This document shows positions 1,206 through 17,750 of a DNA stretch of 64,000 nucleotides, one piece after another; within the stretch, counting starts at the first letter, position 1, and each line of letters opens with the position of its first letter. The translations under genes were made by a program, and so were the position numbers. Source of the stretch: Antedon mediterranea (lineage: Eukaryota; Echinodermata; Crinoidea; Comatulida; Antedonidae). The stretch covers positions 28,936,288 through 29,000,287 of the forward strand of contig NC_092676.1 of assembly GCF_964355755.1 (NCBI RefSeq), given 5' to 3'. The notes under the pieces are model-generated. The model searched no databases and was not told where the DNA came from. It worked only from the letters and a program-made list of their open reading frames with translations.

Positions 1206-4200
1206 TTAAGCGGAAAGGGCTTTTATACCCAGCAAAATACACTCCACTAATAGAAGAACCACTGAACCAAAACCGAATACCTAATGAATAAAAATGAAAC
1301 AATGTTATAGATAGTTAGAAAACAGGCACAATTGCATGCTGTGGTGATACAAAGTGGTGTGTTAAATATACATGTTTGTAAATAATACACTACTCACGTC
1401 AAGCGGCAAATAATACACTACTCACACAAGCGGCAAATAATGCACTACTCACACAAGCGGCAAATAATACACTACTCACACAAGCGGCAAATAATACACT
1501 ACTCACACAAGCGGCAAATAATACACTACTCACACAAGCGGCAAATAATACACTACTCACACAAGCGGCAAATAATACACTACTCACACAAGCGGCAAAT
1601 AATACACTACTCACACAAGCGGCAAATAATACACTACTCACACAAGCGGCAAATAATACACTACTCACACAAGCGGCAAATAATACACTACTCACACAAG
1701 CGGCAAATAATACACTACTCACACAAGCGGCAAATAATACACTACTCACACAAGCGGCAAATAATACACTACTCACACAAGCGGCAAATAATACACTACT
1801 CACACAAGCGGCAAATAATACACTACTCACACAAGCGGCAAATAATACACTACTCACACAAGCGGCAAATAATACACTACTCACACAAGCGGCAAATAAT
1901 ACACTACTCACACAAGCGGCAAATAATACACTACTCACACAAGCGGCAAATAATACACTACTCACACAAGCGGCAAATAATACACTACTCACACAAGCGG
2001 CAAATAATACACTACTCACACAAGCGGCAATCTGCTCTTTCTGTTCTACATGGTATGGTTTAAATAAATCAATTATTTCCTTGATTTTGTACGCTAGGCA
2101 ATCTGAACCAATCAAAACAAGGATAGCAAACACAACACAAATACCAATCTCCTGTAACGACAAACAATTATTATTATTTCATCAACAATTAGTCTTTTTA
2201 ATTTTGATAATTAACCGTTGTTAATTCAATTCAATTCAACATTTATTTAAATCAAATAATAACATAATGTACATAGATTAAACAAATGAAACAACAAAAA
2301 CATTATCATTTGGTTCGGACATTCCTCCTTAATAGGCCTATAGTTAATCATAGAGATATTACTATGAGTTAATTAAATAATAAAGCTTTAATTTCGAAAT
2401 GAGTCAAGTATGCTCACTATGATGGGATTGATCCATTCTGGCTTGATAAGGTGACCAATCAAAGTGACCGCTATCAGTGACGCTACTGTGATTGCAATCG
2501 CCATATATACATAATACGCCCAAAACTCATCTCGGCAAGCCTCGGCGTTTGCAGCATCAACACAGTCGACTATTGTATCAAGCATAAGACCGAATCCAAT
2601 GATCAGTAAAATCTGTAAAGAGGAATTTCACAAGATACTTTTTTCAAAATCAAACTTATTTTACCACACACAATTAGTAGGCCTATAAACCTGAGACAAC
2701 AACAATCACGGCACGGTGTCGCTACGCATTATTTTTTTTTCCTATTAGGTTAAGGCAGAAACTATAGAGGGCGTGTATATATCATGAATATTCATGATGC
2801 ATGCCCGAACTCATGACGTCATACTTGCAAAACACACTATGCGTGACGTTCGCAATAATGCAGCTAGATCGGAGTTAGTTACTGTACTGTGAAGGTCACA
2901 CTAGACCTGCAATTTATTACGTTTTGAAAAAATAATGCATATAACATTAAACCAGGTTATTTATTGTCTTAAATGTGCGTTCTATTAGGTTAATTAGGAT
3001 AAAAATAGAAAAACAATGCACTTCCTAATAAGTAGCTCGCGTCGAAAGTTCTCTGGTAGACGTTTCTAGGCCTAACTTAGTTGGGCTTAGTTTTTAGGCC
3101 TAGCTGGTAAAGAGCGGTAGCGTACGAACATCGTACGCTAGCTATAGGCCTAGTCTGACCAGGGAGTTGCAACTGTGTTGCGACTGTGTTGATGCTGCAA
3201 CTCCCTGGTCTGACGATGTCGCGTTGCTGAATTGTCTTTCCTTTTTTTGGCAGAATCCGGCAATATGTAAGCCTAGATATGATATAATTAAACATTTATA
3301 ATAATCACAATTGATTCTAAAGTTATGTGTGAGTTTTAATTAATTCATTCGATATGTAGGCCTACATAATTTTTGGATGTCAAAAAAATAAATATTTCAG
3401 AAACATAAAGCAAAACATCACATACAGGCCTATATTATAACGTTTTTATTTATTTTGTTTTTGCATTAGCAGTTCCAAAGATTTCCCCATGTATGGGCCT
3501 ATATGGAATAATTCAGTCTGAAGTACAATGTTAGACTAACATGAAACATGTATGTCATTGTAGTGTAAAATTCTTAATCAATTTAATTTACTCTCAGTTG
3601 TTGATACTATACGTACGTAGGCGCGGCTAAATGGTTGGTGAGTGTTTTTGCAGCAGCTACCCTAGCATCGGTTTCGGCCTAAACCTAATAGGAAAAAAAC
3701 AATGCTGCCGGGCATGTCGAGTACGGTATACATTAACTTGAAATTTCTTTAAAATGACAATAGCCTTCTAAAATGTATTGTTTTGTTGTACATTACTAAC
3801 AGTACTGATTGTTCGTAAGCAGAGATGGTTCGCTTCATCACTTTTCTCCATTCCACATGACTATAGGCCTGCAACAACACGGCGTCGTCGGTTCGTCTAA
3901 AATTGATTTATTTAACTTTATTTAAGGCATGATTTTGTTTTTATTGTTAGGGTTCCGAGATACAAAATTCCTTATTGTTCCATAGACTGGAAATTGTTTA
4001 TACAACTATACAATATAGAATACAATAAAACATTAAAAAACAAAAAAAATTAATCCCTTTAACCAAAAGCAATCTCTTTAAATTTAAAAAATACAAAAGC
4101 TTGAGAGAAATAGCGTCACAAAGCGTCACATCTGGATATTTGCCTTACGTCATAATAGTATACATTTGTATCATTCAACCGAAATAATTCAATGACCATA

Positions 4201-4782
4201 TAAATAGAAATTAAATATGATGCATTTTGTATCCGTGTATTTCAGCATTCAATTCATTATTTAGTGTGTAAGATTCATATTATGAGGAAGTAAAGTACGG
4301 TTGAGAATTTCTCAATGTTTCTTTCAAGGCAAACTAACAACAGTAGGATGCTGCGCTCAGGTGAGCTCAGTATTGTATTAAGCATTTTATACGTGATATT
4401 CCTGAATTAAATTGAATAAAGGTGGTGCATGCCACAACAAAAAAAAAAGATGATAGATGGGCTAATAATAACCAACGAAAAGCTTAGCAGAAAACGAAAG
4501 AAAATAACTAATTTTAAAGGTACTTTTTTCCAACAAAAAACTAAAAAAGATTTTGTCTTTATAGTGAAGTAGAGTAACAATAATCCAATCCACTCGAGCA
4601 ATTCAATAGGACTGAATATGCATGTAAAAGTGTAATTTTCTTTAAAAATTCTAATTTCCAAATAGGAGAGGCTTGATGAGCCAATGATGGCTGCAATCCG
4701 AATGTATTATGCTATTATATTTACTTACGGCTTCAATGATCCTGAGTATACCATTCGGCGTTGCAAAGTATTTACACTCCAT
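1206..4782 (-). CDS. M1: four-transmembrane MARVEL-like protein, 4 exons, 151 aa
   Basis: Small integral membrane protein rebuilt from four exons, all joined in phase 0: 4782-4729 (ATG; donor GTAAGT), 2612-2418 (donor GTGAGC), 2151-2020 (donor GTGAGT) and 1280-1206 (TAA). Residues 11-30, about 49-72, 84-104 and 128-147 are hydrophobic, giving four membrane spans with short ends. The start reads MECKYFATPNGILRIIEA; a GILxIxE opening to span 1 is typical of MARVEL/CMTM-type proteins, which work in membrane trafficking. Two cysteines (35 and 44) lie in the first loop, as in the paralogues. M2, M3 and M4 share exon sizes, phases and sequence. The family call is by pattern only; another tetraspan family is possible. 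The exon-3 donor is the first of many identical donors in a minisatellite. The frame is open and there is no sign of decay. Confidence 0.62.
1381..2028 (-). repeat. 27-bp minisatellite covering the end of M1 exon 3
   Basis: Twenty-three near-identical 27-bp units plus a 24th degenerate one. Read on the minus strand each unit encodes AACVSSVLF and contains the exon-3 end and donor TGT|GTGAGT. Because 27 is a multiple of three, the exon-3 frame stays open through all 23 units and stops at a TGA only in the 24th. M2 has the same exon end (8700) as a single copy, so the expansion is specific to M1. Confidence 0.95.
3157..3210. repeat. perfect 15-bp inverted repeat in M1 intron 1
   Basis: GACCAGGGAGTTGCA at 3157-3171 is exactly reverse-complementary to 3196-3210, with a 24-nt spacer that itself repeats CTGTGTTG. 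It lies next to several short palindromes (CGTACG twice, GCTAGC, TAGGCCTA). It could be a DNA cruciform or RNA hairpin, or the remnant of a small element. Confidence 0.8.
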
Positions 4783-6164
4783 TATGTGATCGTCGTCTGA
4801 AACATAGTTAAAGATATACATCGATAAACAAGTTATTTATCTTGTAATTGAAAAATATTATTATACACTCTTAAAACATAATACACTTTATCTTCTTTTT
4901 AAAGAACTTATTATACAACTGAGAACAACGGAACTAAGCCGCCCGGATCGCCTGTCCTCGTCCGTCCGTCTAGCTTGATTTGAATCATTATACTTTTTTT
5001 GGATTTTAGATATTGACATATCTTATATATATATATATAATATATATTATATATTTAATAAATCTATGCATACAATTTTGAAAATTTCAACCAAATATTT
5101 GATAGAAAGACTGTATTCGGCGTCATTGGCGTTCGACCTCTGTCCGACGTATATGAAAGGCAATCTACATTCAGGATCTAAGTTTGATAGAAAGACTGTA
5201 TTCGGCGTTATCGGCGTTAGACCTACCTGTCCGACGTCTACAATGATAAATGAAAGGCAATCTACATTCAAGATCTAAGTTACTACAATAACTATTAATT
5301 ACAACAAAAATAATTGTTCTAACCAACCTGAGTTTGGTGTTTTTCAACAGATACTGCAGTAAGATTTTGCTTCTGGTATTTTAGGAGCTGGCAGAACTAA
5401 TGAATCCAATCGACTAGAAGAGTCTAATAAAGCGGGAATTTCCACTCTAAGTTTGCATCTTGTCTTGAGTCAACAACCAACCAAGTGCTTACATTTGGAC
5501 AGGCTCTCCCATAATTAACAAGGGGGGTTTCTTATGACTGTGTTTCTACCACACTCATATTAAAAGTGTAATGTTTCGGACCGTGTTCCAACAGTGCACA
5601 AGTATAAAGCTTGTTTCCCACCATGCGCAATACAAGGACGTAAACGCAACGCAAGTGAATGACAAGTGATTGATCAATTATTGTGCGTTCTAGTTGGAAC
5701 TAAGATGACCAAAATAAAATTTCAATATTACACATCATTTATTTATTATAAAATCTTCTCTGAAGATAGAAAAACGTAAGATGATGTTTTACGCTTCTGT
5801 ATTTGATACTTAATACTTAATTGTATAAAAAAGATGTAACATGCTTATTGTTCTGAAAATAATACTAAAAAGTAGTCCAGAATTGGGACCGTGGTCCGGA
5901 TTGCCTCCAAAATAGAGTGCTCCTTGACCATATCTATCTGTATTTTCATTTTGGTAAAGATCTTGGAATGACTTTTTGAGTAATCCTGCTAACAAACAGA
6001 CACACACACGCGATCGACTACATGTGGAGGTAAATTATAAAACATTAAATTCGTGTAGACAGAATTAATAATGACGACGATGATGATGCGACATTGACGA
6101 TAAATGACGTAGTCATACTAAAGGCAAATTATGCTGTAAAATACGAAAGAAAATCATTCATGTT
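4783..6164. other. M1-M2 spacer with an 87-bp tandem duplication
   Basis: No coding exon seen. A unit starting GATAGAAAGACTGTATTCGG occurs at about 5101 and again at 5188. The stretches 4990-5060 and 5280-5540 have diverged counterparts upstream of M2 (about 11680-12060), so the M1/M2 duplication included the upstream region, which probably holds the promoter. A run of AT dinucleotides lies at about 5026-5053. Confidence 0.5.
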
Positions 6165-9100
6165 TTAATTTTCTTCCATCAAATTAGTCCATAACGAGTT
6201 AGGCTGATCGGAAGAGGCTTTCAAACCCAGCAAAATACACTCAACTATTAGAAGAACCACTGAACCAAAACCGAATACCTAATGAAAAAAAAAATTATAA
6301 AAAGTTAGAATACAGGCACAATTGCAATATGTGATCCAAAGGGGTTTTGGGCAATTTCTACTGAAGCTTGGTTCCCACTAGCGACGCAACGTAACGCAAC
6401 CTACGCAACATAAGCAAATGCCCTTCCAATAATTGTGTTTGCCCCCGCCTGCGTGAAATCAAACCTGCGATGTTTGCAGCACTGTTGCGTCGTCGGTTCC
6501 CACTTGTGATTACGCAATACTGCATTGCGTTCTAGTGGGAACCACGCCTTAACAGGTTTCAATTGTCTTGCTTGTATAACATTAATAAAAAAATATGATA
6601 AAGCGTGGTTCCCACTAGAATGCAACGTAACGACGAATTGATGCAAAGTGCTGTATTGCGTAATCACAAGTGGGAACCAACGATGCAACAGTGCTGCAAA
6701 CATCGCAGGTTTGATTTCACGCAGGCGGGGGCAAACACAATTATTGGAAGGGCATTTTCTTACGTTTGCGTAGGTTTCGTTACGTTGCTCAGGCCCGTAG
6801 CCAGGGGGGTTTTTTGGGGTTCGGGCGAACCCCCCCTTTTGCGCGAACCCCCCTTTTACCAGCGAACCCCCCTTGAAAAACAAAGGCCCCACTTCCAAAA
6901 TTGTGCAATTAATTATCAATTATAGCAGATTTTTTGGTCATTTTACTTCTATTGACTATGTTTAAATCGATCGAATATACAGATTGTCCGATGTCAAAGT
7001 CACTGCTGAGCGTGAGATCGAGAGGCACAAGATCACGTCGTTCAGTTCAGTTCAATCTTTTTGGGGATTTTTATTTTTTTCCTGGAAATATTTTTCATTA
7101 AACCAAAGAATTTCACTGTTTAAACTTGAATAAAAATGGTGCTGAGTTAAATTGGTACGTGTACGTAGGCCTACCGTATATTTCGGTGTATAAGACGCAC
7201 TTTTGACACGCACATTTGACCTCTAAATGTAACCCTAATTAATTTAATTACCTACTAATACTTAAATTAATTAAAAATAGTGTAGGCCTACTACTCTGCA
7301 ATGTAGGCCTAGCTAGTTACTCACTCCTGTCTAACCACAGTGTGGTAACAAGTTTATTGAATTTTTAGTTAAGATAAATTGTCATCCTCGACTGTATTAA
7401 TTAATATTACAGTACGCATTAGATATTCTACCCAGGCCTAGTAATACTCTCTGAACTCGCAGGTGTGTATTCTAGCAGCATGCAGCATCATCACAGCGCA
7501 ACACATTTATGGAAGAGTCCATTAATTACGGTGGTGTCACATTTTATTTACACAATAACTATTTCCCTTGATCACGGTGGTTTATTTTTATTACATCTCT
7601 ATGTCAACAATCACATAATTTTATAATCATGTAGTCAATAGTTCGTATGTCAAGCGATATCTAAAAGAGTGTGTTGTTATTGTGTTAAGTAGCTTCCCCT
7701 AATCTTATAGTGTATATATGGCCAACAGTGCTGGCCACCAGGCAAGGAGCACATGGTTAGTGCTCTCTCCTCATATTGCTGTAATGCATGCATGGAAATA
7801 GGAAAGATTTTCATATAGGCCTACCCAACATGATATTCCTGGTTCATTATCAGCCCAAAAAACTGAACATCATTTGGATTGATTTTATAATGGTCATACA
7901 CACAATAAGAAGGTATATATTTAAATAATATGAAATTAAAGTTACTTAAATAGACTTAGGCTAGCCCTACCCACACAGTGCATCGTAAATATGGGGATTT
8001 CCCTTTTCATTGAACGTTCAGTTGAAGTAGAGACTGATTACGATGTAATAAAGGCAATCAAACAAAATTATATCATTTGATTCTAATATGTCTCAAATAT
8101 CGTTATTTTATTATTAAAATACCATTGTTTTGATTGTAAAATGTTTAAATTTCGGCCTAGAAATAAGTGCGTCTTATGCATCGACTACATAAAAAATACT
8201 AATATTTCAGTCTCCGTTATGGGTGCGTCTTATACACAGGTGCGACTTGTACACCGAAATATACGGTACTATTTGTTTTTTATGTTTATAGGATAAGAAA
8301 TTACTTAAGGGCCTAATATAATATACTTTTTTGCAACAATAAAGCTGTATTTCATGATCAGTACTACTAACTTCCATACTGTAGGCCTACTATATAATTT
8401 CTCTGCATAACCCAGATTTTAGTAGGTAAAAAATGTCTGTAAGCTTATTAAAACAACCAAAATTGCTCTGAGAGCCAAAGCGTCCAGGGGGCTTCGCCCC
8501 CTGGACCCCGACCGGGGGCCCTTGGCGGCCCCCTCGCCCCCAGCCTACAGTTGCTCGCTGCGCTCGCAAAATACTTGGTGTCAAGAAAACCCCCCTCTGA
8601 TGCATTCTGGCTACGGGCCTGTTGCTAGTGGGAACCACGCTTCAGGTGGATAAAATATAAACAGTACGGCGGTTTGTAAATAAATACACGTCTACTCACA
8701 CAGGCGGTCATCTGCTCTTTTTGCTCTACTTTGAATGGTTTAAATAAATCATTTATCTCCTTGATTTGGTACGCTAGGCAAGCTGAACCAATCAAAACAA
8801 GCATAGCAAACACAACACAAAAACCAATCTCCTGTAACGACAATTATTATTATTATATCAACAACTAGTATTTTTAATTTTGTTAATTAATCTTTGTTAA
8901 TTCCATTCAACATTTATTTAAATCAAATATTAATATAATGTACATTAGATAAAACAAATATAAAACAACAAAAACAGTATCATTCAATATGCCTATAGTT
9001 AATCAAATAATAAAGCTTTAATTTCGAAATAAGTCAAATATGCTCACTCTGACGGGATTGATCCATTCCGAGTTGAAAAGGTGACCAATCAAAGTGACCA

Positions 9101-11119
9101 CTATCAGAGATGCTACTATGATTGCAATCGCCATATATACATAATACGCCCACAACTCATCTCGGCAAGCCTCGGCGTTTACAGCATTAACACAGTCGAC
9201 TATTTTATCAAGCATAAGACCGAATCCAATGATCAGTAAAATCTGTAAAGAAAAGGCATTTCAATGCAATGTTCAAGTTCAGCAAAGATGGTTCGCTTTA
9301 ACACATTTCTCCATTCCAAACGACTGAAGGCCTACAACACGACGTCGTCGGTTTGTCAAAAATTGATTTATTTAACTTCATTTAAGGTTAATTTTGTTTT
9401 TGTTGTCAGTCTTCCAAGATAAAGACTTATTGTTCCATGGAATTGTTACTTTATTTTGGCAATTATACAATATAAAATACATTCAAACATTTAAAAACAA
9501 GGCCAACAGCCATAAGTCGCGTGCTAAAACGCATAGTGATACCGGACCGACAGACAGACCGACAGACCGACCGACCGACATAGTGAACTATAGAGTCGCG
9601 TCCACGCGACTAAAAATGAACCCTTTTAATTAAAAGCAATACAATCAGTTTCGTTTTATTCCGTAGGATTAGCAATAAGCCTATTTCATTTAGGATTAGC
9701 AATAGGCCTATTTCATTTAGGATTAGCAATAAGCCTATTTCATTTAGGATTAGCAATAGGCCTATTTCATTTAGGATTAGCAATAGGCCTATTTCATTTA
9801 GGATTAGCAATAGGCCTATTTCATTTAGGATTAGCAATAGGCCTATTTCATTTAGGATTAGCAATAGGCCTATTTCATTTAGGATTAGCAATAGGCCTAT
9901 TTCATTTAGGATTAGCAATAGGCCTATTTCATTTAGGATTAGCAATAGGCCTATTTCATTTAGGATTAGCAATAGGCCTATTTCATTTAGGATTAGCAAT
10001 AGGCCTATTTCATTTAGGATTAGCAATAGGCCTATTTCATTTAGGATTAGCAATAGGCCTATTTCATTTAGGATTAGCAATAGGCCTATTTCATTTAGGA
10101 TTAGCAATAGGCCTATTTCATTTTTAAGAAGCATGAATCAAATCTTCACAAACATATGTAATTATCCAACCATGAGGTCATTATCAAAACTGAATTATCT
10201 GGCTATACGAATTATGTCATAATAATACACATTTTTCATCATTATTTAACCGAAATATTACAATGACCAAATAAATCTAAATTAAGGATGCCTTTTGTAT
10301 CCGTGTATTTCAGCATTCAATTAATTATTTTTGTGTGTAAGATTCATTCGACTGTAAAGGTTTCAATAAACACAGTTGCAAGAGCGGTCGGTCCGAGTTC
10401 ACACAGGAACAGGATGCTGAGCTTTGGCGATCAAGGGTACGAGTTCCTATCTTGCTTGCTTGGTAATGTGAGCTCAGTATTAAGCATTATACGAGATATT
10501 GTTGAATAAATTGAATAAAGTATGGAACGCCGTTTACGCAACATTTCGATGATATGAATTTTATGACGCGATATGTGAATGAAATGCATCGATATGAATT
10601 GAATGGCGCGATATAAGATTGAAATGTTTTGAATTCAATGCTTTGAATTAAATTTTTTGAATGAAATGTTTTGAATTGAATGTTTTGAATGAAATGTTTT
10701 GAACGAAATGTTTTGAACGAAATGTTTTGAATGAAATGTTTTGAATGAAATGTTTGAATTGAATTGAAATATAAAACTATTGGCGGCGTATGTCATTCAC
10801 GTTAGCGATTTTTATCTCAAAATATGCATTCCACTTTTCAGGTCCGTTAGGATTCTCTGTAAAGGATCCATATTGATGACAGCGTGGAAATGAGATGAGG
10901 GTCCCCAGGCTTAGGCCCAAGAGGTTGATAAAAAAATTGCGAGCGGGAATAAATATGCATGGAAAAGTGGAATTTTCTTTAAAAATTCTATTTTTTCCAA
11001 ATAGAGTAGGCTTGATAAGCCAATGATGGCTGCAGCAGCTCAACTGATGTATGTGAGCTACTTACGGCTTCAATGATCCTGAGTACACCATTCGGCGTTG
11101 CGATGCGTTTACACTCCAT
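6165..11119 (-). CDS. M2: four-transmembrane MARVEL-like protein, 4 exons, 164 aa
   Basis: Closest paralogue of M1. Exons: 11119-11066 (ATG; GTAAGT donor), 9242-9048 (donor GTGAGC), 8831-8700 (donor GTGAGT) and 6278-6165 (TAA), all phase 0. The first three exons have the same lengths as in M1 (54, 195, 132 bp). Exon 4 is longer: after the fourth span the frame continues to a tail ending LMEEN, whereas M1 stops earlier. It has the same four hydrophobic spans and the loop-1 cysteine pair. Introns and flanks are also alignable to M1, so this is a recent tandem duplicate. Intron 3 was enlarged by nested transposons (6364-8643) and intron 1 by a 27-bp minisatellite. The family assignment carries the same doubt as for M1. 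Confidence 0.62.
6364..6548 (+). mobile_element. short inverted-repeat (MITE-like) element, copy 1
   Basis: Non-coding element of about 185 bp. One end reads GGTTCCCACTAG, the other CTAGTGGGAACC. The same sequence lies inverted at 6603-8643 (split by a later insertion) and at 45528-45710 in AMT-B. No transposase is encoded, so it would be moved in trans. Confidence 0.75.
6603..8643 (-). mobile_element. MITE-like element copy 2, split by a hAT-like insertion
   Basis: Inverted relative to the copy at 6364-6548 and about 55 bp from it. Its body runs from 6603 to 6789 and its last bases resume at 8622 (TTGCTAGTGGGAACCACGCT). The gap is filled by the element at 6790-8621. Together the two copies could form a long hairpin in M2 intron 3. 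Confidence 0.75.
6790..8621 (+). mobile_element. hAT-like non-autonomous transposon, TIR CAGGCCCGTAGCC
   Basis: Starts CAGGCCCGTAGCCAGG and ends GGCTACGGGCCTG, with a 5-bp target duplication TTGCT at 6785-6789 and 8622-8626. G-rich and C-rich tracts lie just inside the ends. No intact transposase is seen. Ends beginning CAG(G) with a 5-bp duplication suggest the hAT5-type group, but this is inference from ends only. A second member lies at 28843-30635. Confidence 0.78.
9660..10124. repeat. 27-bp minisatellite in M2 intron 1
   Basis: About 17 units of AGGATTAGCAATAGGCCTAT plus TTCATTT. Each unit holds the palindrome ATAGGCCTAT. The minus strand reads through as NEIGLLLIL repeats, but this is intronic and absent from the matching M1 intron, so I do not treat it as coding. 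Confidence 0.95.
10540..10765. repeat. degenerate short tandem repeat in M2 intron 1
   Basis: Irregular 17-18-bp units of the type AATGAAATGTTTTGAAC, grading upstream into related GATATGAATTG units. Confidence 0.8.
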
Positions 11120-12132
11120 TATGTGATCGTCTGAAACATAGTTAAAGATAAATCGTTTTTGTTTCCTTTTCCTCGTAGGATAGTTCAGTTATTTTAATTG
11201 AAAAAAAAATAGAAAATTGACTTAAATCATAACACACTTTTCATCTTCTTTTTAAAAAAATAAATACATTTGCCTAGCCTAAATTATATAACTGAGGACA
11301 ACGTAACTGGGCCGGCAGTAGGCCTACTCGTCCGTCCGTCTGTCTAGGTACATAACCGAATTGCCAAGAATAAAACATTTCTCAGTTAGGCTAAAAGGGC
11401 ATCTATTATCCACATACAATCACTGAATCCTTAATAACATTAATTAAAATTTCATTAATATTTTCAATCGGTTTTATTGATTTTCTTTGGGGTTTTTTTT
11501 TTTTTATTTTGATAAAATTCTACCATAATTTGTTATTTTGGCAGCCTTTCAGAAGTTTTCGCTTTTGGGGTTTCGCCGCTCTTATTTATAATTATTTTAT
11601 CGCAAACTTTGTACATAGAAAACAAAAGAGAAATAAATGTTTTTGAAAAAAAAATGCATTCATTGATACTTTGTTTGGATTTTAGATATTGACAATTTTT
11701 TTATCTAATAAATCCATGCATAGGCCTACAATTTTGAAAATTGCGTTTGACCTACTGTCTACATTATTATGATAAACGAAAGGCAATCTAAATTCAGGAT
11801 CTAAGTTAGTACAATAACTATTAATTACAAAAAAAATAATTGTTCTAACCAACCTGATTTTGGTGTTTTTCAACAGATACCGCAGTAGGATTTTTGCGTC
11901 CGGTATTTTAGGATCTGGCAGAACTAATGAATCAATATGAGGAATCTAGAAGGATCTATACAGCGGAAATTTCCACTGTAATTTCCATCCTGTCTTGAAT
12001 CAACAACCAACCAAGTGCTTACATTTAGACAGGCTCACCCATAATTTAAAAGGGGGTTTCTTATGACTGTGTTCTACCACACTCATGTTTAAAGCGTAAT
12101 GTTTGTTATATATTTATAAATCTACTCTGACG

Positions 12133-12285
12133 ATAGAAAACATGGAATGTTTTGACTACCTCCAAAACCGAACCCAAATCACATCCTTTAATTCTCACTC
12201 CTCGTGCTGCCTTCCTATGACTTGTGGCGTCCCCCAAGGATCTATACTCGGACCTCTCCTTTTCCTCGTTTTGATTTTCGTCTGA
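12133..12285 (+). pseudogene. non-LTR retrotransposon reverse transcriptase fragment
   Basis: The frame reads YLQNRTQITSF followed by CGVPQGSILGPLLFLV. GVPQGSxLGPLLFL is the hallmark reverse transcriptase motif of CR1/L2/Jockey-type non-LTR elements. Only about 50 residues remain and the frame then ends, so this is a dead remnant. Confidence 0.85.
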
Positions 12286-12504
12286 AAATTTGCAGGCCGC
12301 AGACATCCGATAAGAATGATGTAGGTTATCATACCGTATTTGGCTATATGACTTACAGATAGAAACTGATACAATAAACTCTGATTATAGCTCAAATAAT
12401 GCAAGTGATTCAAAAAGAAGAAAACACAGACGACGTGGAAAGAAATATGGTAGATCAAAAACAAGCAAGTAGTGTAGTAATATTAAAATAGTATTTAATA
12501 ATAT

Positions 12505-12672
12505 CAATAGGTTAACGTCTGTTAGACTCAATGAGATTGCTCATTTAATCAAAGAGAATAATATTCAGGTTTTTGGCGTTGCAGAAACCTTTTTAACTAA
12601 TGATAATAATATTAATATAGATGGTTATAATGGTTTGGTAAATGTAGAAAACACAAGCGAGGAGGGGGTGTA
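12505..12672 (+). pseudogene. non-LTR retrotransposon endonuclease fragment
   Basis: The frame contains LIKENNIQVFGVAETFLTND and INIDGYNG, matching the N-terminal part of the apurinic-type endonuclease domain of non-LTR elements (a conserved E in the TET/AET context, then the DGYN segment). It stops at TAG, and a related stretch continues in another frame to about 12790. It lies downstream of the RT fragment, the reverse of the normal order. Confidence 0.7.
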
Positions 12673-12789
12673 GGTGCCTTTGTTGCGAAATATATCACTA
12701 TTTTAGATGACAAATGAATGTTTTTAATTGTAAATCCGATGACTGCGAAAGAATTTGGGTAAAAGTGTGTTTTGAATCAAGTCGTTATC

Positions 12790-13170
12790 CTCTAACCCAG
12801 TTTTTTAACTCTTGTCCAGCGTCTTCGTCCCTTCTGTCCTCGTTCTGTCACGTGTTTTTGTCCTGTGTCTTGTTGTGCTTGTGTATGTAGCTTAAATTTT
12901 TTATTATTTTTTTATTATTTTTTCTTTATTCTTGTTATTTATTTATTCATATTTTATTTTCATTTATTTATTTATTGACTACTTTTGAAACATTTATTAT
13001 ATATACTTTTTGAATTATTTTTTTCTGGTGGAACTAGCCTTAAAGCCCTCTGGGCTTATTTATGTTTTTCCAGCATAAGTGTATTCTAAATTTTTTTTTT
13101 TTAAACACACTGTAATATTATTTCACAATGATGTATCTTATGAAAATAAATTGAATTGAATTGAAATTGA
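12790..13170 (+). mobile_element. non-LTR retrotransposon 3' end
   Basis: T-rich untranslated sequence ending in short repeats of TTGAATTGAA, the usual form of CR1/L2-type 3' tails. It is probably the tail of the remnant just upstream. Confidence 0.6.
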
Positions 13171-13577
13171 ATTACGCTTCTGCATTTTGTATGAAAAAAG
13201 TGTAATAGGCCTGTTGGTTATGATAAAAGAGATACATACCCGATTATGTTAATTATTTATTACTATACGAAGAAGCATTAGGTACTGTTGAGTAGAGAAA
13301 CATCTTTGTCCATGTTTGAGCAGATTTTTTCTCCACTGACGTTGGCCTATATTATAATATTGTTGCTTTCTATATGACTTTGTGCAGCTGCTAACTAAAT
13401 GCTAAAATCAAAAAATACATAATGTAATTGTGTAAGGTTTTGAAAATTATTGATAGCAAATCATTAGTGCCGGGTTGTCGACAATCTGTAGCTGGGGTTA
13501 CTAGTGGTACTAATAAGCTACCGTTATACAATCATGAACTCAAAACACGTGGATAGATGACGTGACGACTTCGATTC

Positions 13578-16500
13578 TTACAATGCTCTTTTCAGACAAC
13601 TACACTCCAGTATCAGACAAACCAATGTAGCAAAACCGAATCCCTGTAAAAGCAAAATCAAATACTGTGTTAGGCTCTCTAAAATCTATTATCCGATATT
13701 GAAATTTTAATTACTTGGTGATTTTATATTAATACGGGTTTGATGTTATTTTGCTTATAGGCGTCCCCTCCCTTCCAGCAATTGCCATGCCCAATTTTTA
13801 TTAAATGTGTGCTGCCACCAATTCAAAAAGTTAAAGTCAATAATCATTATCCAATATATAAAACCGAAATTTGGTTCCCACTTGGACGAGGTGAGTGAGT
13901 TGACCAATCACAGGCGACAGTGATCCACCATTACATCATGATTCATGAGGTGATGTCATTAATAAACTGCTACTTTTTTTTTTTTTTTTAAATTCACATT
14001 TTAGGCAAATTGCCAAGGATCTCAAAGGTGGCAATCTCGTTGACAAGAAAAACATACACACAAGATGCTCTACATAAACAAAGACTTTGGGAGTGAGTAG
14101 TTATGGGCGCTGGTATGGCACAAAAGCACAAAATCAGAAACGAATAAATAAACACGATGATTTATGTTTTTTTATTTGGACTCATTTAAACAAACCCAAT
14201 TTGTGTTTTGTATGTAACATTAAGGGTTGAGGGATGGAGGAAGAAGATAGGTACAAAGAGGAAACATTTTAAAATATATTCTTATCCACTCAGTAACGAA
14301 ATATTGTTTTTAATGTTTTATAGGCCTATAAATAATATACCACTAAATACAGTAAAACATTTACGATTTAATACTTTGTTAAAACTCTCACTGTCATAGT
14401 CGATTGAAATAGTAAAGTACATGTAACGATACACCACTACGTACGTTTATATATTTTTAAATTATTAATTAATACAAACGTTGAGAAGCAACTGTCAGTA
14501 ATAACGTTTATTTATTTGTATATTATATGTTTATAATCTAACAGTATAGGGCCTACCCACACTCACAGTAATAAAGTTTATTTGTATATTTGTTTATATT
14601 ATATCTAACAGTACCAACACTCACAGTAAGAAATTTGCGATTCAAATTGCGATCAAAAAGTGGTTAATACCTTAACAGTATTGTAGCATTGCAATACTAT
14701 TTATGTTTATTCTCCAAGGGGGCCCATAAATCTAAATCTATACCTCAATGGTTAAACCAAATAATTTGGAATGTTCCATTCATCACAAATCAATACATTT
14801 GTAAAAACGTATATTACATGTATCAAAATAGCATTTTTAAAAGAAAATCGGCCTGTCTTCAACATTATGATGCTGTACTCGAACGGTTCAACCGGTTTTC
14901 AGCTATTAAAAACAATTATCGTAGGAGGAGATAGGAAAATGCGAAGCATCCTCGTGTTATTGTGTGCGGGTATTTTTCAAATTGACATCCATTAGACAGT
15001 GTATACCACGATCGAAAAACACCCCTATTTGGGGCAAATCGTTGAACCTAAATTCGTTGTAATCGTCAATAACTAATTATCGAACTCAATTTAATTAGTA
15101 AACAGGGTTACATCAGGTGGTTAAAATCAGTACCGAAAGTACGAACCAACTTTATATACCATCGAGTAAACATTCTAGAAATAACGCGTGATTTACCGAA
15201 TTTTGCCCTTACGTAAATTTATATATAGATTATGTTGTGTTGGTAACATTTAAAGTGGGTTAATTCAGTGTGTTGCCTACTATATGCTGTATAATTTAAA
15301 TTTTACAACTTGTAGTCCAGTTTTACAAAGTAGGCCTACTGAAAAGTAAATGACTACGGAAGAATAAAACAATAGTTGTTTTGATTGTATAAAATAGGTG
15401 TGATGTTTCGGATTTATAACAATATAGGTATTATTTAATTTGATTACATGACATCATGTACTTGGCGGTAATTTTAAAAAGAGATACTTATGTATGCACG
15501 TGCAGGAGTTAATTGAAACTAGTTAATTGAGGTTTTTGCTTGATCTTTGGCGACATAATCCAAAGACATAAGTCATTTTCTTCCGGATATTTAGGATTTG
15601 AAAATAAAGGTTATTTAAGTATGTACAATTAAGTAAATAAAAGGTAATCTTATTAATCTTCCGGAATTGTCAACAAAGGGCGAAATCGAAAGCAGTGACA
15701 TGGGTGTTTGACATACTAAAGTTTACTGTAACTTATCTATATAATTTTAACTTTAATTTAAATCATAAAAGGAAAAAACAAAAGAAATAAAAAGGACGCT
15801 TCTGATGTCATGCATAAATTAATTTGTTATGTTTAAATATCGGTAGGCCTACTTTGTAAAACTGGACTACAAGTTGTAAAATTTAAATTACACAGCATAT
15901 AGTAGGCAACACACTGAATTAACCCACTTTAAAATGTTACCAACACAACATAATAGTATGTAACTAATTTAAAATATATACGGTAATACCTCTATTGTTA
16001 TATTCAAAACCTATTGTTTCATACTTCCTAGTCTTTGTGCTATATGCCTGTTTTATCTGATTTTGTGCTTTTGTGCCATACCAGCGCCCATAACTACTGG
16101 AGTGGAGTTGCAAATTGTCATGAGAAAAAATTCTGACATATGACAGGACTTGAACCCAAGACCCTAGCCAAGCATCATAACCACTGAAGCCACAACTCAA
16201 CTCTATTAAAGCCACAACTCCACTAAAGCCACAAACTTACACCTGTGACAGCTTGAATGTTCTCGTTGACTTGAAATCCGTATGGCTTGAATAAGTAATT
16301 TGCTTCTTTTCGATTGGACGCTACACAGGCTATTGAAGCGACTAAAAGGGGAAAAGCTACCGCAATACAAAAACGGATCTCCTGTAACGAAAGAAATAAC
16401 ATGAGTTATACGAGTGTGCTCTACTATTCCTAATGGTTCTCACTAGAGACGCAACAGAAGGAGACAACGCAAGTGATTTAACCAATCACAAACGATGGAT

Positions 16501-17691
16501 AAGTCGCTTGTCATTGGTCAACTCGCTGCGTTGTGTCTTCTACGTCAAGGTTGCGTCACATCAACTCAACAACCTAGGCACAGCGCAAGTTAGTGACCAA
16601 TCACAAGCGACAGTTCTGATGAGCCATCGCGGAGTGATATGAGAGGATCCAAGCTTTAAAGACAAAATCAAATTATAGGCCTGCCTATAACTAATTGTTT
16701 AATTTTGTGTGCATATTCCATGTACATGTTCCATGTGCACAAATGACACACATAAGAGTGAAGGCCTACTATACCATTGATTGCGACCCATCAGTAATGT
16801 CGTCTGGCATGATAAGGTGACCAAGCACAATGACCATTATCGAGACTGCCAATAGCATTGCGAATACTGCAAATAAGTAATATCCCCACAACATACTGAT
16901 ACAAAGCTGGGGAGGTGCGTTCACGTTGCACTCGATTATTTTATAGAAACTAAGACAGAATCCATTAATCAGAAAAATCTGTAAAGAGACAATTGTGATA
17001 TTGTTTTGCGAAACTTTAAGCTTGATACACTCTAGTACACAATTAAAGAACGTAAGCGCAACGCTAGTCTACGTTCTAGACAGAGTTTTGACTTAATATT
17101 AGTAAAAATAAATATTTTGGCACATATGGCGTTTCATACGTATACTACTTTTGCTTTTAAATTGAAAAAAAGCCGACTGGTGGTGGACTAACAATAAAGA
17201 CAATAACTACAGCCTTCTTGTCTAGCGCAACGCAGGTAATTTGACAAACAATAAGCGACTAAACTGTTGCTTGTCATTGGTCAAATAACTTGCGTTCCGC
17301 GTACGTTTTTGCGTTCCGCGTACGTCCTTGCGTTGATTGCGTACGTCCTTGCGTTGGTTGGGTGGGATGATAGTAAGCCCGTATAATAATAATATGTCAC
17401 TCTGAGAAATTCATAACTCACAGCTTGTTTCATTTCCATATTATTCCAATACAAGGAAATGTTAACTACAAGTTTAAATTAAATCCATGATACGTAGGCC
17501 TACAACCAATAGAAAATGCTTCCCCCCTAATAAACTGGATTTTTTCAGCCGACTGACAATTGGTTGTTATTCGATTTCGTCAATCGGTTTTCGTGGTCCA
17601 AGTGAATCAGTATAATACTTACCACTTCAAAAATTTTAGCTATTCCATTTAGCGTTATCAGGTACCAGTACCATCCGTACTTAAGCTTCAT
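13578..17691 (-). CDS. M3: divergent four-transmembrane MARVEL-like protein, 4 exons, 159 aa
   Basis: Exons: 17691-17623 (ATG; donor GTAAGT), 16978-16775 (donor GTATAG), 16381-16241 (donor GTAAGT) and 13643-13578 (TAA), all phase 0. The N-terminus is five residues longer than in M1 (start MKLKYGWYWYLITLNGIAKI). It keeps the LxGFxL opening of exon 2, the two loop cysteines nine residues apart, the GYYLFAV second span and GHLIMP after it, EIRFC at the start of exon 3, and GFGF with a conserved EC pair in the last span. It is clearly the same family but an older copy than M1/M2. Intron 3 contains a fold-back element and a tRNA-derived SINE. The exon-2 donor (GTATAG) is weaker than the others. 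Confidence 0.6.
15229..15954. mobile_element. fold-back element in M3 intron 3
   Basis: Long inverted repeats: the left arm begins ATTATGTTGTGTTGGTAAC and the right arm ends with its complement. The arms are about 110 bp (15229-15340 and 15840-15954), with AT-rich sequence between. No coding capacity. No clear target duplication was found. Confidence 0.82.
16100..16215 (-). mobile_element. tRNA-derived SINE fragment
   Basis: On the minus strand there is an A-box-like TGGCTTCAGTGG (16192-16181) and a B-box-like GGGTTCAAGTCC (16157-16146) at tRNA-like spacing. Downstream sequence (about 16045-16098) has an inverted relative at about 14098-14160. It does not fold into a proper tRNA by eye, so I call a SINE, not a tRNA gene. 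Confidence 0.55.
16430..16640. repeat. dispersed repeat with CCAATCACAAGCGACA motifs
   Basis: Contains GGTTCTCACTAGAGACGCAA and two copies of a CCAATCACAA(A/G)CGA motif. Related pieces occur at 13890-13925, 17220-17350 and 18550-18620. It resembles the MITE-like family at 6364 but is degenerate. It lies in M3 intron 2, just upstream of exon 3 in the direction of transcription. Confidence 0.5.
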
Positions 17692-17750
17692 GACTTAACA
17701 GGTTGGAATCTAAAGATATCAAGAACTTAAACACCAATGACTGGTGGGCA

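Follow-up and report, generated by a model that had tools for sequence, protein, structure and literature searches.

A minisatellite at an exon end multiplies a splice donor in a MARVEL gene of the crinoid Antedon mediterranea, and similar donor arrays recur in the same genome

The window analysed here is a 64,000-nucleotide stretch of DNA from Antedon mediterranea (NCBI RefSeq assembly GCF_964355755.1, contig NC_092676.1, positions 28,936,288 to 29,000,287 of the forward strand). Positions 1206-17696 of the window, plus adjoining DNA, are occupied by four tandem genes of the MARVEL family (M0, M1, M2 and M3), of which M0 sits just beyond the window edge. The contig that carries the window (C7 of the 354-Mb, 18-contig genome) holds two additional members, M4 and M5, at a distance of about 19 Mb from the cluster, which brings the number of family members found to six. 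M1 is encoded on the minus strand by four coding exons, which are separated by introns that are all in phase 0 and have GT-AG ends (Table 1); all of its exons, phases and splice sites are intact. The joined protein has 151 residues and contains four hydrophobic segments according to hydropathy, and a Pfam scan assigned residues 5-143 to the MARVEL domain (PF01284; 52.4 bits, cut-off 32.8), with no other convincing match. Like the MAL, CMTM and plasmolipin families, M1 is thus a four-span protein covered by this domain over its full length; the assignment holds at the level of the MARVEL domain and not of a subfamily, and the tandem cluster is fast-evolving. The gene model proposed for M1 in an initial annotation of this DNA proved to be correct.

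Table 1. Features of the MARVEL cluster (window positions) and of the donor arrays found in the genome (contig positions). A slash marks the exon-intron boundary.
Feature	Location	Strand	Remarks
M1 exon 4, span 4 VFGFGSVVLLLVECILLGIKALSA then stop	1206..1280	(-)	acceptor TTTTTATTCATTAG
Degenerate 24th unit of the M1 array, TTGACGTGAGT	1381..1407	(-)	in-frame TGA before donor GAC/GTGAGT, shifted by one base
23 tandem units of the M1 array, GCCGCTTGTGTGAGTAGTGTATTATTT, 27 bp each	1408..2028	(-)	in-phase donor TGT/GTGAGT in each unit
M1 exon 3, span 3 and the loop after it, end ...EQIAAC	2020..2151	(-)	ancestral donor TGT/GTGAGT, first G at 2019
M1 exon 2, spans 1-2	2418..2612	(-)	donor ATA/GTGAGC, phase 0
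M1 first coding exon, MECKYFATPNGILRIIEA	4729..4782	(-)	donor GCC/GTAAGT, phase 0; counterpart exon matched in M2, M0, M4, M5
M2 exon 3	8700..8831	(-)	single donor TGT/GTGAGT, then unrepeated intron
M2 remaining exons	11119-11066, 9242-9048, 6278-6165	(-)	from paralogue comparison
M3 exon 3	16241..16381	(-)	single donor GGT/GTAAGT, place and phase as in M1
DHX8 array, 37-bp unit, 22 donors	C1:17776256-17777062		exon end ...LTEPPG; out of frame
TDP2 array, 31-bp unit, 27 donors	C1:41208068-41208945		exon end ...GDTNLRDSE; out of frame
TUBGCP2 array, 18-bp unit	C8, from about 18846672 downwards	minus	exon end ...FSNCIQ; in frame (VSVYIE and variants)
HUWE1 array, 30-bp unit, 3 donors	C9:24970928-24970996		exon end ...RHLYNSIE; in frame (VSPFLYNSIE)
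Array at a probable rabaptin-like coiled-coil exon end, 17-bp unit, >20 donors	C3:18139966-18140348		out of frame

The end of M1 exon 3 is occupied by a minisatellite, which was reported by TRF as a 27-bp unit present in 24.1 copies at 1380-2030 with a 99% match. Each unit consists of nine bases of the exon 3 end (the last three codons) and 18 bases of the intron start; the repeat therefore starts at the exon end, and a donor is found in every unit. Twenty-three units share one sequence, the sole deviation being a C in unit 22 that changes Val to Ala. They are followed by a degenerate 24th unit, and splicing from its shifted donor would yield a truncated M1 without span 4. Of the 24 GTGAGT strings present, 23 are equivalent; their first G falls at 2019, at 1992 and so on to 1425. 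The unit length is a multiple of three and the units are free of stops, and the reading frame is open from exon 3 across all 23 of them. The junction of exon 4 at 1280 is also in phase 0 (TTCATTAG/GTATTC), and joining any of the 23 donors to this exon is predicted to insert between 0 and 22 copies of the nonapeptide VSSVLFAAC; the length of intron 3 would range from 739 bp (first donor) down to 145 bp (last donor). The initial annotation had described a unit spanning the last codons of exon 3 and the GTGAGT donor, a row of 23 equivalent donors, and a frame kept by each of them with 0 to 22 nine-residue copies, and the present analysis agreed with it on all of these points. An acceptor inside the unit, which would create mini-introns within the array, was rejected upon inspection by eye, since the candidate GAGTAG lacks a pyrimidine tract and its use would lead the frame into a stop.

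Comparison with the paralogues provides a basis for the origin of the array. All six genes agree in the codon and the phase at which exon 3 ends, and the donor there is TGT/GTRAGT in five of them and GGT/GTAAGT in M3. Only a single copy of the unit is present in M0, M2, M3, M4 and M5, and the earlier description of M2 as single-copy, with unrepeated intron after its exon 3 donor, was borne out. Because the exon end is common to the six paralogues and the array is restricted to M1, the first M1 donor is ancestral and the array derived. No second match to the 27-bp unit could be found in the 354-Mb genome when up to three mismatches were allowed. The near-uniform sequence of the M1 units is compatible with recent turnover. 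The stretch that separates the first and second coding exons of M2 contains another 27-bp minisatellite, at 9664-10123; it has 17 copies, which are 99% alike, and is unrelated to the M1 array.

The segment that extra copies would add to the protein is strongly hydrophobic (mean Kyte-Doolittle value 2.17). The repeats had been placed by the initial annotation in the loop before span 4. However, hydropathy analysis indicated that the unit merges with span 4: with at least one copy of VSSVLFAAC, the hydrophobic block of this span lengthens continuously towards span 3. With three copies, the MARVEL score falls to 39.3 bits (52.4 bits without them), and two copies should already be long enough for an extra span, in which case the C-terminus could flip. 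Extra copies would thus alter the membrane domain of M1 instead of neutrally lengthening a loop, which gives reason to expect selection against a strong use of the later donors.

The same architecture was identified elsewhere in the genome by scanning for at least three AGGTRAGT strings in close tandem and reading their flanks, a survey whose counts are lower bounds. At least four arrays begin at certain exon ends, namely those of DHX8, TDP2, TUBGCP2 and HUWE1 (Table 1). The TUBGCP2 array contains 13 donors within its first 280 bp, and the small HUWE1 array is perhaps at an early stage. A rabaptin-like coiled-coil exon end is a probable fifth example (weak PDB match, E 0.38). As in M1, the units of the four arrays start at the exon-intron junction and carry one donor each, whereas their lengths differ from that of M1 and their donors are much nearer to the consensus (7.7 to 9.5 bits in the other arrays versus 1.1 bits in the M1 unit, which has T at -1). 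When the first donor is joined to the following exon, the protein of each of the four genes aligns with solved homologues and shows no gap at the junction. The TUBGCP2 and HUWE1 arrays are in frame, as is that of M1, while those of DHX8 and TDP2 contain stops: each of donors 2 to 22 of DHX8 meets TAA, and each later donor of TDP2 meets TGA, in the first extra copy. Most of these later donors equal the first donor in consensus match (CAG/GTAAGT in DHX8, GAG/GTAAGT in TDP2). DHX8, a core splicing helicase, is single-copy in this genome, the remaining matches being at most 58% identical and hence other DEAH helicases. As their later donors lead to stops, DHX8 and TDP2 can work only if the first donor provides enough mRNA, and long rows of equal donors are thus compatible with a sufficient use of the first one.

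Several estimates bear on what may be expected by chance. The M1 array itself is certainly not a chance product, and the landing of an array on a donor is unsurprising, because donors occur every few kb and, according to our own rough estimate, many such collisions are expected genome-wide. Arrays with at least five copies and a unit of at least 10 were found 11 times in 130 kb (approximately one per 12 kb) in a biased sample composed of the window and other stretches. By our own estimate, a random unit would be both a multiple of three (one in three) and, at 27 bp, stop-free (about two in three) in approximately one case in five; an open 27-bp frame is thus weak evidence of function when taken alone. 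Approximately 20,700 AGGTRAGT strings are expected by chance in this genome (34% GC). Real donors probably outnumber them, again by our own estimate, and the occurrence of exon ends among such arrays would therefore need no special mechanism. We do not claim that donor strings are enriched in arrays, since the reversed control pattern was also frequent (179+114 versus 327+127, counted as matches and not as arrays).

The minisatellite of human IFI6 (6-16, G1P3) has a unit of 12 bp, also a multiple of three, which is present in 26 copies. It is located at an exon end (Turri, Cuin and Porter 1995, NAR 23:1854, via PMC4526556), and PMC4526556 reports that, in addition to the normal donor, two repeat units further downstream serve as donors, which results in three mRNAs. 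M1 resembles IFI6, as described there, in that a minisatellite at an exon end multiplies splice donors. It differs in that the gene and protein family are unrelated, the unit is 27 bp, and the insert is hydrophobic and lies beside a membrane span; moreover, the use of the IFI6 donors was reported in mRNA, whereas use of the M1 donors is predicted from sequence. The Pfam scan of M1 revealed no match to Ifi-6-16, the domain of IFI6 and ISG12. M1 may function in the way that IFI6 does, but the two are not related.

Based on these observations, we consider it probable that the M1 array is a recent minisatellite and that the first donor makes most of the M1 mRNA, with at most a minor use of the next few donors. 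The minisatellite would have arisen when the junction of exon 3 and intron 3 was duplicated in tandem, and later expansion or homogenisation would have led to the 23 equivalent copies. Although all 23 donors are competent by sequence, the donor at 2019 would dominate and the other units would act as intron; the one to three donors that follow it might at most be used at a minor level, which would place one to three hydrophobic nonapeptides before span 4. Dominance of the first donor is expected in M1 from the donor-1 junctions of DHX8, TDP2, TUBGCP2 and HUWE1 and from IFI6, and arrays of the DHX8 type are the best available guide to M1, short of proof. On the other hand, the dominance suggested for DHX8 need not hold for a donor as weak as that of M1, and leakage could exceed that of out-of-frame arrays because extra M1 copies keep the frame. 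In addition, SRSF1 favours the intron-proximal one of competing donors (PMC5585400), a preference that would favour the late M1 copies.

In a different and unlikely reading, M1 has low expression or is in decay, and the array is a passenger without consequence. Between M1 and M2, NG86 gave a dN of 0.093 and a dS of 0.098, and the ML omega of 1.16 was not different from 1, which would fit a decaying gene, as would the loss in M1 of the C-terminal tail of M2 and the weak consensus of the exon 3 donor. However, every exon, phase and splice site of M1 is intact, and the ML omega relative to M0 suggests diversifying selection instead. This omega was 2.08 for M1-M0 (2dlnL 5.9 versus omega = 1) and 2.61 for M2-M0 (2dlnL 9.9), the two comparisons sharing a branch and being based on predicted gene models; diversifying selection in the MARVEL cluster is thus possible. 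Given the shared branch, the predicted models and the M1-M2 omega of approximately 1, these comparisons do not show purifying constraint on M1, but the intact exons across the paralogues argue for maintenance of the family.

Less probable still is the isoform ladder suggested by the initial annotation, in which all 23 donors would be used at comparable rates and graded proteins with 0 to 22 nonapeptides would be produced. The sequence does permit it, in that the 23 equivalent donors are in a single phase and are followed by no stop, the intron would be at least 145 bp whichever donor is used, and the rest of the four-span protein is intact. It is not the likeliest outcome, given that DHX8 and TDP2 tolerate arrays whose later donors would destroy the protein and that IFI6, in the account of PMC4526556, uses the first few donors only; besides, once two or more of the hydrophobic repeats were included, the protein would gain a membrane span or a long stretch of hydrophobic residues. 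It is equally doubtful that the extra donors, themselves uncut, serve as a platform that raises local U1 occupancy and aids the recognition of exon 3. In favour of this reading, the donor of the M1 unit is weak (T at -1), and exon definition and the recruitment of SRSF1 can be promoted by U1 that is bound to a donor further downstream (PMC8724738). Against it, one such donor is presumably enough for splicing in the paralogues, and the arrays of DHX8, TDP2 and HUWE1 exist despite near-consensus donors, so that need does not explain the arrays.

Donor multiplication by a minisatellite is already known from IFI6; of greater interest is the finding that it recurs in a single genome. No account of several donor arrays in one genome was found in the searched literature, whose coverage was incomplete. 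The arrays of M1, DHX8, TDP2, TUBGCP2, HUWE1 and probably more genes might form a class in which in-frame members would give rise to copy-number-dependent isoforms and a first-donor rule would protect the out-of-frame ones, a tentative proposal to which we assign a low probability. If it is true, the set represents a natural experiment on the choice of the spliceosome among identical donors. Minigenes are the usual means of studying how one of several identical, closely spaced donors is chosen. In this genome, natural arrays range from 3 to 27 donors; some are in frame whereas others would be destructive if leaky, and one RNA data set on these arrays could directly test the first-donor rule. 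That minisatellites can capture exon ends several times in one genome with no apparent harm extends what was known from human IFI6, the single well-known case.

Among the other scanned arrays, no recognisable exon was found in the flank of 11 (L045, L046, L059, L071, L072, L074, L075, L076, L077, L080 and L082), and a degenerate array (L078) has an exon-like frame upstream for which the homologue search found no homologue. No host exon was recognised on the same strand for a 31-bp array of about 36 copies at C1:40902567-40903659. A perfect CAG/GTAAGT is present in each of its units, which also carry TTTGTAG/GTTGATACAG and thus resemble a 10-base micro-exon with an acceptor and a donor.
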